The notes under the pieces: generated by a model
Seen by the model: the letters and a program-made list of their open reading frames with translations, nothing else
The model's database searches: none
What the model was told of the DNA's origin: nothing
Position numbers and translations under genes: made by a program
Origin: Oceanipulchritudo coccoides
GTDB taxonomy: Bacteria > Verrucomicrobiota > Verrucomicrobiia > Opitutales > Oceanipulchritudinaceae
Direction: 5' to 3'
DNA: 64,000 bases
NCBI RefSeq assembly: GCF_010500615.1
Contig: NZ_JAAGNX010000001.1
Coordinates: 124,001 to 188,000 of the forward strand
Part shown: positions 19,269 through 21,132 of the stretch, one piece after another
Layout: every line of letters starts with the position of its first letter
How positions within the stretch are numbered: the stretch's first letter is position 1

Positions 19269-19366
19269 GGGCCGGGTCCTATGCAACGTCGGGTTGGTGA
19301 ATTCCGCCAGGGCCGGAAGGCAGCAACGGTAGCCTGCACCCGGGTGTGCCGTAGGGTGCCTGGCCC
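19269..19366 (+). ncRNA. ffs: 4.5S RNA of the signal recognition particle
   Basis: A ~98-nt segment contains the universally conserved SRP domain IV core CAGGGCCGGAAGGCAGCA and forms one long hairpin: GGGCC at the 5' end pairs with GGCCC at the 3' end, and CCTATG... with ...GTAGGG inside. A T-rich run (CTTTTTT) follows directly and probably terminates transcription. Small SRP RNA next to dnaX is a known arrangement, for example in Bacillus. Confidence 0.95.
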
Positions 19367-19410
19367 TCTTTTTTAACTTTTTTCAATTATCACCCCGGAA
19401 ACAGAGTAGA

Positions 19411-20544
19411 ATGGCGGAATACCAAGTGATCGCCCGCAGATGGCGGCCCCAGCGATTTGAAGATATCGTGGGGCAGGATCACATTGTCCGGACGCTTCGC
19501 AATGCCATTGAGAATGAGCGCATTGCCCACGCCTACCTGTTTGTCGGCCCACGCGGGACCGGCAAGACCTCCACGGCGCGGGTCTTCGCAAAGGCCTTGA
19601 ATGCAGAAGGCGGGCCCAAGAGCAATCCCTCCGACGAGACGGAGATCAGCCAGGCCATCATGAATGGCAGCTGCATGGACGTGATCGAGATTGACGGGGC
19701 CTCCAACAATTCCGTTGACCAGATCCGTGCCCTGCGTGAGGAGTGCCAGTACGCTCCAGCCCAGTGCACTTTCAAAATCTATATAATCGATGAGGTGCAC
19801 ATGTTGTCGACCTCCGCCTTTAATGCGCTTCTGAAGACGCTTGAGGAGCCACCGGCACATGTGAAATTCATCTTCGCGACCACGGAAGCGCAAAAGGTCC
19901 TGGCGACAATTGTTTCGCGCTGTCAGCGCTTTGAATTTCGTCCGATTTCCGAGGAGGTTCTCGTTGAGCGGCTGACCCAAATTGCCAAGTCCGAGAAGGT
20001 GAAAGTGGATGAGAAAGCGCTCTGGTCGATTGCCCGGCTGGCCAGCGGTGGCATGCGCGATGCCCAGTCCATTCTCGACCAGATGATTTCCTTCTGCGGG
20101 ACAGAGATTTCCGAGCAGGATGTGCTCGATGTCTACGGGTTGGTCGGATCATCCCGGATCGAGCAGCTGGGCGAAGCCATGGGCAAGGCGGATTTCCCGA
20201 CTATCGTCCAGCTCGTTGAGACTTTCAGTGCCGAAGGCCGCGACCTATATCGGGTTCTTCTTGATCTGGAAACCCTTGTCCGTGAATCGCTTATGGAAGC
20301 AATTCAGGGTGGCGGTAAATCCTCGAAGCTGGGAGCGAGCCTCTCCTCGGAGTCGCTCCTGCGCATGCTCGACGCGCTTCAACAGAGTGAAACTGGCCTG
20401 CAAAAAGGCCTTTCCGAAAAGGTGAACTTTGAGGTGGCGCTCCTTCGCGCAGTCGAGGCCAGCCAGGTGCGGGCCATCGATAATCTCGTCCGTGAGCTCA
20501 AGGGCCTTCAGGATTCCGGTGAGAGCGTAAAAAAAAACGCCTGA
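19411..20544 (+). CDS. dnaX: DnaX, DNA polymerase III clamp-loader subunit (gamma form)
   Basis: The clamp-loader ATPase that loads the sliding clamp. The 377-residue zero-frame product has Walker [11 protein letters not shown] near residue 46, Walker [20 protein letters not shown] and the sensor SRC motif ([10 protein letters not shown]). The cysteine-rich zinc module normally after Walker A is missing here. The frame ends in V-K-K-N-A right after a run of nine A. A -1 shift there continues into an open frame ending at 20876, giving a tau-like product of about 488 residues. This strongly suggests gamma and tau are both made. Confidence 0.95.
20529..20537 (+). promoter_or_regulatory. A9 slippery run, dnaX recoding site
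   Basis: Nine consecutive A lie in zero-frame codons GTA AAA AAA AAC. Both A-AAA-AAA and A-AAA-AAC are classic -1 slippery heptamers, and an A9 run is also the site of transcriptional slippage in Thermus thermophilus dnaX. Downstream, TGCCGG-ATGAG-CCGGTA can form a small hairpin. Two codons after the slip site the zero frame stops at TGA. Confidence 0.75.
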
Positions 20545-20876
20545 TTCCTGAGAACAAGCGGGGCTTGACGCCCATTTTCCTGCCGGATGAGCCGGTATCC
20601 GTGGCCGCAGTAGAGAGCGCGGATGTCCCCGATGAAGCCCAAGCGCTTCCCGATGAGCTCGAAACACCCGCGCTGGACGACGTTGAGGACCCTGCTGATT
20701 TCGAAGAGGAAGCAAATGAATCCGAGCTTCCCGGCGAGGAGATCTTTGATGTGCGGGAACCGCTCCTTGATCTGGAAAGTGCAATCGAAAAAGTTCCTGC
20801 CTCCTTGCGCAAGGAAATGGAAGATCTTCTTCGGGCGGAGTTCCGTGAAGTGATCCACTGGCAAGAGCCGAAGTAG
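20538..20876 (+). CDS. dnaX: Tau-specific C-terminal part of DnaX (-1 frame)
   Basis: In the -1 frame the sequence stays open for 112 codons after the A-run: a short basic stretch, then a long acidic region ([16 protein letters not shown]) and a helical end ([20 protein letters not shown]). Tau C-terminal parts of other bacteria bind DnaB helicase and the polymerase alpha subunit; this one is much shorter than in E. coli. It has no convincing start or ribosome-binding site of its own, so it is best read as part of dnaX. Confidence 0.75.
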
Positions 20877-21132
20877 GGCCTCGTTCCGGCGCCCCGTCAG
20901 GGCGCCATGTCGTTTCCGCGCACAAAACCCAGGCATCGGTCCCCGCGTTGCGGGTCCCTCAACCTGGGCTAGATCCGCCAGCCCTTCGGGCCGCGGGGGG
21001 AAACAGGGAAATAGTTTGCTGGCTCGAGCAATGGCCCAACGGGCCGGAATATGTAGCCGATGCTGACGGACCCGCAACGCGGGAACGGATGCCTGGGGCT
21101 AAAAACGGGCGCCCCGTCAGGGCACGGAAATA
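20877..21132. repeat. REP-like cluster with a 30-bp inverted repeat
   Basis: The gap after dnaX holds two arms, 20928-20957 and 21068-21097, that are inverted copies differing at 2 of 30 positions (core CCCGCGTTGCGGGTCC). Outside each arm is a GC-rich palindrome, GGCGCCCCGTCAGGGCGCC at 20888-20906 and nearly the same at 21108-21123. A shorter palindromic block (CAGCCCTTCGGGCC) sits between. This looks like a REP/MITE-type unit without a transposase; it may also terminate dnaX and the convergent gene. Confidence 0.75.

Follow-up and report, generated by a model that had tools for sequence, protein, structure and literature searches.

Conserved A-run at the gamma/tau junction of dnaX in an order of Verrucomicrobiota precedes a tail found in three reading frames, consistent with recoding by RNA-polymerase slippage

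Transcriptional slippage in the dnaX gene of Thermus thermophilus was reportedly described by Larsen et al. in 2000. Slippage in this gene is also treated in passages of two later papers (PMC1088944; PMC5009743). There, tau is encoded in the zero frame and gamma results from slipped mRNA. A second group of genes was assembled by Antonov et al. (2013), who listed 17 two-ORF dnaX genes; these represent 12 genera and share a -1 offset at the DNA level. Poly-A tracts were present in 12 of the 17 (nine A10 and one each of A9, A8, and A7), and transcriptional realignment was proposed for this set (excerpts of PMC3711429). Opitutus and Coraliomargarita are not named in the main text of that paper, where Verrucomicrobia appears a single time, in one row of a table (PMC3711429). 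Some of its nine A10 genes may be verrucomicrobial. The frameshift in E. coli dnaX involves an upstream Shine-Dalgarno (SD) sequence and a downstream stem-loop. At its shift site, A_AAA_AAG, gamma is produced by -1 programmed ribosomal frameshifting (passages of PMC5009743 and PMC3711429). Finally, the roles of default and edited product have been swapped repeatedly in P-gene editing of paramyxoviruses, with four P-to-V default switches inferred (PMC8204654, in excerpt). In the parts of the open-access literature that were covered, no paper on recoding or frame wandering of verrucomicrobial dnaX was found.

The window, that is, the whole 64-kb stretch of Oceanipulchritudo coccoides DNA that was analyzed, contains a dnaX gene with the following features.

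19411..20544, plus strand: zero-frame dnaX ORF of 377 aa, predicted gamma with AAA+ ATPase, lid, and domain III (NCBIfam and Pfam)
20518..20523, plus strand: GGTGAG, weak SD-like hexamer of doubtful function, 8-9 nt 5' of the last heptamer within the run
20529..20537, plus strand: nine consecutive A, the putative slippage site of RNA polymerase between gamma and tau, its position kept in the order
20538..20876, plus strand: -1-frame tau tail of 112 codons plus stop codon (20874-20876), supported by the ORF and by coding selection
20538..20759, plus strand: acidic variable linker of the tail, devoid of predicted regular structure (alignment, structure model)
20542..20544, plus strand: zero-frame TGA one codon past A9, the gamma end expected from unslipped mRNA (sequence)
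20549..20551, plus strand: +1-frame TGA three codons past A9, which also closes the third frame (sequence)
20760..20873, plus strand: C-terminal part of the tail with its conserved 29-letter motif and two predicted helices (profiles, alignment, structure model)

The gene was assigned to dnaX by matches to NCBIfam PRK05563 (E = 5e-137) and TIGR02397 (E = 4e-126) and to the Pfam families DnaX lid and gamma domain III; the domain III match extends to residue 362. It is the sole dnaX found in the O. coccoides genome, the three other search matches having E values of 8e-8 or worse, and follows closely on an SRP RNA gene (19270-19368). The ORF starts at ATG 19411, and its zero frame reads GTA AAA AAA AAC GCC TGA at the run. 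The initial annotation of this DNA was confirmed in describing a dnaX gene with nine consecutive A followed by an open -1 frame of 112 codons, the run having exactly the length known from Thermus. The tau tail was described there as much shorter than usual; the gene is shorter than the dnaX genes of 40 controls from other orders of the class (514-700 aa). A large imperfect palindrome with 65-nt arms (80% complementary) is located at 20928-21097, just past dnaX; the genome contains similar copies at some seven further positions, as in a REP-like dispersed element.

The run at 20529-20537 is the only A9 of the window, both strands counted. Shuffled windows are expected to contain 1.22 such runs, and the length of the run is therefore unremarkable per se. 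The 3.52-Mb genome as a whole has just 10 separate A9 or T9 runs, against about 67 extrapolated from the window shuffles. Another sense-strand A9 of this genome (locus L242, G000:C3:324112-324120) is located inside a 271-codon open frame which, judged by eye, we take to resemble a methyltransferase; stops in the two alternative frames follow after about 10-13 codons at most. The length of the -1 ORF of dnaX provides only moderate evidence because off-frame openings of at least 100 codons were observed in 18 of 752 tests (376 window dnaX codons in two off-frames), and ORF length was rejected as a proof on its own. The case for recoding rests, at the sequence level, on the conserved position of the run, on the C-terminal motif, and on an excess of substitutions at third codon positions in the tail.

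The window gene resembles Thermus dnaX in several respects: a sense-strand run of at least nine A precedes the tail, stop codons are located close to the run in the other frames (one codon past the run in the zero frame and three in the +1 frame), one gene has two predicted products, and the genome harbors two tRNA-Lys species. Both tRNA-Lys (TTT) and tRNA-Lys (CTT) were found on scanning the surroundings of 30 of 41 tRNA matches, and a 2016 review connects the presence of two species with slippage rather than ribosomal shifting in Thermus (passage of PMC5009743). Unlike Thermus, where gamma is the slipped product, the window gene has its tail in the -1 frame and would need slippage for tau. 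In this respect it matches the two-ORF genes of Antonov et al. (2013), with a gamma stop right past poly-A and a tau tail in -1. The A-rich shift site and the two (predicted) products are shared with E. coli dnaX, whereas the AAG heptamer and the stem-loop are lacking. Both arrangements, tail in the zero frame and tail in -1, occur among the relatives of O. coccoides, together with +1 tails. As judged from these sequences, the window gene taken alone belongs to the two-ORF type described in 2013, and the new part is the three-frame behavior across the order; wandering of the dnaX frame is not reported in the excerpts of that study (PMC3711429). The paramyxovirus P gene likewise combines a polymerase slippage site with evolutionary exchange of product roles, although it involves a viral RNA polymerase, insertion of G, and an unrelated gene.

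We compared 152 dnaX loci, comprising 148 genomes of the order (O. coccoides included) and four named loci of Opitutaceae and Opitutae. Labels denote dnaX loci (L), genomes (G), families (f), and genera (g). The 148 genomes were the best 148 of 207 matching in the order, the lowest-scoring genomes, mostly of about 1 Mb, being under-sampled. The closest named relatives found, Opitutaceae and Opitutae (class Opitutia), display 58-64% identity and are placed inside the tree of this order. Comparisons were made with 40 dnaX genes of the same class but of other orders and with 76 loci from other groups (L038-L113), the latter being best-scoring matches rather than a random sample. A FastTree tree was built on the N-terminal part of dnaX (144 rows, 139 labelled) from all loci but L147, L150, L151, and the five with no located run (L022, L145, L146, L148, and L223).

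Runs of A8 to A13 were located at the gamma/tau junction (codons 365-394) in 144 of the 152 loci, and runs of at least A9 in 142. A10 was the most frequent length (111 loci), followed by A9 (27), A11 (3), A8 (2), and A13 (1); many of these genomes are drafts, and isolated differences in run length could be assembly errors. Upstream of the run, the same 144 loci contain no A9 in 151,182 coding bases, and their tails contain one in 57,010 bases. None of the 40 control genes is interrupted, and only one contains an A9, at codon 552 near its 3' end. The three other genomes examined in the window's genus carry A10 followed by a -1 tail; together with the run in 144 loci, this makes a one-off sequencing error in O. 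coccoides very unlikely. Eight loci lack a run of at least A8: L013 and L025 (A6), L150 (A7, a doubtful case), L022 and L223, in which the run is gone and dnaX is in a single frame, and L145, L146, and L148, from genomes of 0.9-1.3 Mb. In L145 and L146, dnaX has only 388-397 codons and no A-run, with a motif-like end following domain III after little linker. Three genomes of family f2 (G117, G147, and G192) have two dnaX matches each, all with E values below 1e-139 among the matches listed.

A9 or A10 was present in eight of the 76 best-scoring loci beyond the order, in seven of them at codons 377-426 and in one at codon 525. In every case the gene continues past the run in the zero frame, and the two remaining frames close within eight codons, as in Thermus. 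The seven (L040, L047, L051, L069, L079, L090, and L096) are uninterrupted genes of Ignavibacteriota, Bacteroidota, Planctomycetota, and another verrucomicrobial lineage, and their sites are Thermus-like.

The frame of the tail was called in 141 loci with a run of at least A8 and a readable tail, using a profile or, failing that, the longest opening. In L156 and L219, where the two disagree, the profile frame was taken; L188, L227, and L229 have no frame call, since the contig ends just past the run, and the A6 and A7 loci are outside the 141. The tail is in the -1 frame in 74 loci, in the zero frame in 34, and in the +1 frame in 33. At least 14 frame changes are needed on the dnaX tree. Strongly supported branches alone force eight changes for the zero class, eight for the +1 class, and three for the -1 class. 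Of the 14 lettered families with at least two readable loci, 10 keep a single frame throughout (for example 16/16 in f17, 9/9 in f2, and 21/21 in f14), and f8, f20, f21, and f22 are mixed. Changes were also detected within genera. In g53, three genomes have A9 and an in-frame tail and one has A10 and a +1 tail; the residues leading up to the run do not differ, and the tails begin similarly. In g39, A10 is associated with a +1 tail (five genomes) and A11 with a -1 tail (one genome), as predicted for a one-base insertion. A third pair, in g43 (L201, A10 and +1; L212, A11 and -1), was set aside as weaker than g53, other differences being present in the flanks.

It had been proposed that relatives sharing the A-run and a -1 tail at a fixed offset would support recoding, and that uninterrupted relatives would point to an error. 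The A-run is kept, as proposed, and the fixed offset fails. Uninterrupted relatives do exist (34/141) and retain the run; in sequence, these loci look like a mirror image, the arrangement of Thermus. The offset not being fixed across the order points to slippage rather than to ribosomal frameshifting.

In the tails of the order, a linker that is variable and frequently acidic leads into a conserved motif with the consensus ExAVxxxPxxxRxxLxxLFRAxFxxVR in 45 tails. The description of the window tail as acidic and helical stands for the acidity of the linker and, as to helices, for the C-terminal part. AlphaFold2 predicted helices at tail residues 79-84 and 88-98 (mean pLDDT 72, pTM 0.28) and no regular structure in the acidic stretch (residues 21-70, pLDDT 56-59). 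A fold search with this model was dropped since the model is confident only at its short helical C-terminus. The tail alone had no match in NCBIfam, a best E value of 0.23 in Pfam, and a single, not meaningful match (E = 0.67) in a PDB profile search. Homology to the C-termini of dnaX from other orders (ALEIFKGxIVEVR) was not significant (hhalign, 7%).

A profile built from 25 Opitutaceae-side -1 tails matched the +1 tails of family f8 (1.5e-4 to 1e-7) and, in loci with the run, the zero-frame tails of f5, f9, f10, and f16 (7.5e-6 to 6.5e-10); tails of several other families scored weakly or not at all. The hhalign values were 95% for -1 versus +1 tails and 97% for -1 versus zero-frame tails. 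Profiles built by leaving one family out picked the frame with the longest opening in 128 of the 141 loci and a different frame in 2, with no hit in 11; the 130 hits were distributed among the -1 (71), zero (30), and +1 (29) frames. These frame calls and the cross-frame matches therefore indicate, by profile comparison, that one homologous tail occupies three frames across the order. Substitutions are in excess at third codon positions of the assigned frame in most of 18 pairs, covering all three frame classes; the exceptions are the zero-frame pair L206/L211, with no excess, and L123/L128, with only a slight one.

Signals for ribosomal frameshifting were sought around the run. The window has A_AAA_AAA and A_AAA_AAC in frame, and the run is followed by C, so that A_AAA_AAG is absent. 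The GGTGAG hexamer has a duplex energy of -7.6 (rank 18 of 143), and its bases differ in the genus mates. No hairpin was detected 3' of the run in the window (z of 0.07 in one analysis; +1.19, rank 134 of 143, in another), and none was consistent across genera, z being below -2 in 7 of 70 representatives versus 2 of 70 control segments. Upstream, such hairpins were found in 12 of 70 representatives versus 2 of 70 controls, and some A10 loci have a strong hairpin just 3' of the run (L214, z of -4.6). Both upstream and downstream hairpins are possible modulators of slippage. SD-like 5-mers were present in 6 of 70 genus-by-frame representatives, against a null of 6%. Pairing with the anti-SD sequence just 5' of the run was mildly raised relative to random in-gene positions (mean of -4.37 versus -2.71; energies at or below -7 in 19% versus 7%). 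The means by genus were -4.34 for -1 tails, -3.73 for zero-frame tails, and -3.69 for +1 tails, each beating its own shifted windows; raised pairing is not confined to -1 tails, because the other two classes display it as well.

One locus of the window's family, L013 (genome G010), is an exception. Its run is only A6, a GGGAG sequence is located 10 nt 5' of A_AAA_AAC, and a 7-nt spacer containing a zero-frame TGA leads to a strong 11-pair stem-loop. It alone of 143 loci combines a duplex energy at or below -7 with a hairpin z at or below -2; relaxing the duplex cut-off to -6 admits L168, and to -5 also L135. The L013 hairpin ranks second of 143, and none of 1,470 random positions equaled L013 on both measures. 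In this locus, polymerase slippage looks like it has been exchanged for ribosomal frameshifting at the same site, a post hoc observation from one draft genome that is 80% complete. No second genome of this genus was found among the relatives. L025, which lacks an A9 and has an in-frame A_AAA_AAG with a -1 stop two codons later, is a possible E. coli-like site whose SD and hairpin are weak.

Since slippage yields all three frames, the third frame is expected to be closed. The +1 frame has no role in a -1 ribosomal shift. Among the 74 loci with a -1 tail, it is closed by a stop within 10 codons in 70 (40 of 42 genera); the corresponding share is 31% at random N-terminal coding positions and 29-43% inside tails. 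In loci with a +1 tail, the -1 frame is closed in 31 of 33 and the zero frame in 32 of 33. Where the tail is in the zero frame, closure extends to the -1 frame in 30 of 34 loci but to the +1 frame in only 19 (10 of 18 genera), and these counts tell against a uniform closed-frame rule. Overall, both non-tail frames are closed within 10 codons in 117 of the 141 loci.

According to Antonov et al. (2013), the direction of ribosomal shifting is conserved among orthologues and transcriptional realignment sites mix directions (passage of PMC3711429). The dnaX loci of this order have -1, zero, and +1 tails in place of a single shift direction and thus classify as slippage sites by that published criterion. 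The choice between ribosomal shifting and Thermus-type slippage, left open by the initial annotation, is thereby tilted to the latter. The recoding proposed there, with gamma in the zero frame and tau in -1, is supported by the run and open tail in the order, and we consider it highly probable that RNA-polymerase slippage on A9 makes both gamma and tau from the window gene. The polymerase would slip at A9 and release mRNAs with more or fewer A. An unslipped mRNA would be translated in the standard way into gamma, whose 377 residues end at TGA 20542-20544. With one A gained or two lost, the -1 frame would come into phase and tau would result, consisting of the first ~375 residues of gamma and the 112-residue tail with its unstructured acidic linker and C-terminal helical motif. 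The mRNA in the third frame would end three codons past the run, giving a second gamma-like form. The slippage itself, the ratio of gamma to tau, and what the tail binds are what we infer beyond these features. The tail's frame at the DNA level could drift because slippage samples all three frames, and it would have done so repeatedly in the order. The (dT)14 vector, which uses a phage polymerase, is a precedent for such frame-insensitivity by analogy only, its tract being longer than the window run. Similar expression was obtained in E. coli from all three frames of that tract (excerpt of PMC5855593).

If the ribosome alone made tau, by a -1 shift at A_AAA_AAA or A_AAA_AAC that reverses the E. 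coli arrangement, the direction would be right in the window and in 74 of the 141 loci. The heptamers of the window are in frame, GGTGAG is located 8-9 nt upstream, and L013 carries the full cassette (GGGAG, A_AAA_AAC, and stem-loop) at its A6. However, a -1 slip cannot reach the +1 tails (33/141), which argues for polymerase slippage, and would be superfluous for tau where the tail is in the zero frame (34/141), yet the run is retained there. A ribosomal heptamer requires just 6-7 A, against the 9-10 observed, and a downstream hairpin is missing in the window and inconsistent across genera. We thus regard a purely ribosomal origin of tau as improbable. A-runs are slippery for both RNA polymerase and the ribosome, and the window gene could combine slippage, as the main mechanism, with a ribosomal contribution. 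The SD-like hexamer and the evidence from L013 that the family can use ribosomal-type signals are consistent with such a combination, but the window has no stem-loop and the hexamer is not conserved among the genus mates; we hold it to be unlikely, though clearly less so than ribosomal shifting alone, and it overlaps with slippage rather than excluding it.

Two further explanations were considered. Homopolymers are error-prone and 34 of 141 relatives are uninterrupted, as might be expected if dnaX were truly in one frame and misread, or if its 3' end had decayed and the tail were not expressed. The interruption is, however, common to all four genomes examined in the window's genus and occurs in single-contig genomes (such as G050, G123, G134, G142, G159, and G168 with -1 tails; G047 and G105 with +1 tails), and the tail is under coding selection with a conserved motif. 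Error or decay is therefore most improbable for the window and untenable for the order as a whole. Phase variation, in which the length of the run would vary within a population and toggle tau, would fit the differences in run length and frame between species. We give it hardly more credence than error or decay, as frame is constant in 10 of 14 lettered families and dnaX is an essential gene.

Beyond slippage in the window gene, we lean modestly towards a joint reading in which recoding is neutral to frame. Efficient slippage on A9-A10 would populate each mRNA frame, gamma and tau would be made whatever the frame of the tail, and this frame would drift by small indels (the 14 or more changes on the tree), selection keeping only the length of the run and nearby stops in the other frames. 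Under the same reading, L013 would have swapped slippage for an E. coli-like ribosomal cassette at the same site.

The few known examples of dnaX slippage would thereby become an order-wide natural experiment, in which a varying tail frame next to a conserved run allows transcriptional and ribosomal recoding to be told apart from the sequence alone. Ordinary gene calling is expected to lose the out-of-frame tau tail in 107 of the 141 loci. The comparisons within genera indicate that a one-base change can swap the roles of default and recoded product. Why bacteria keep gamma becomes testable, as the run persists whichever of the two products is the default.
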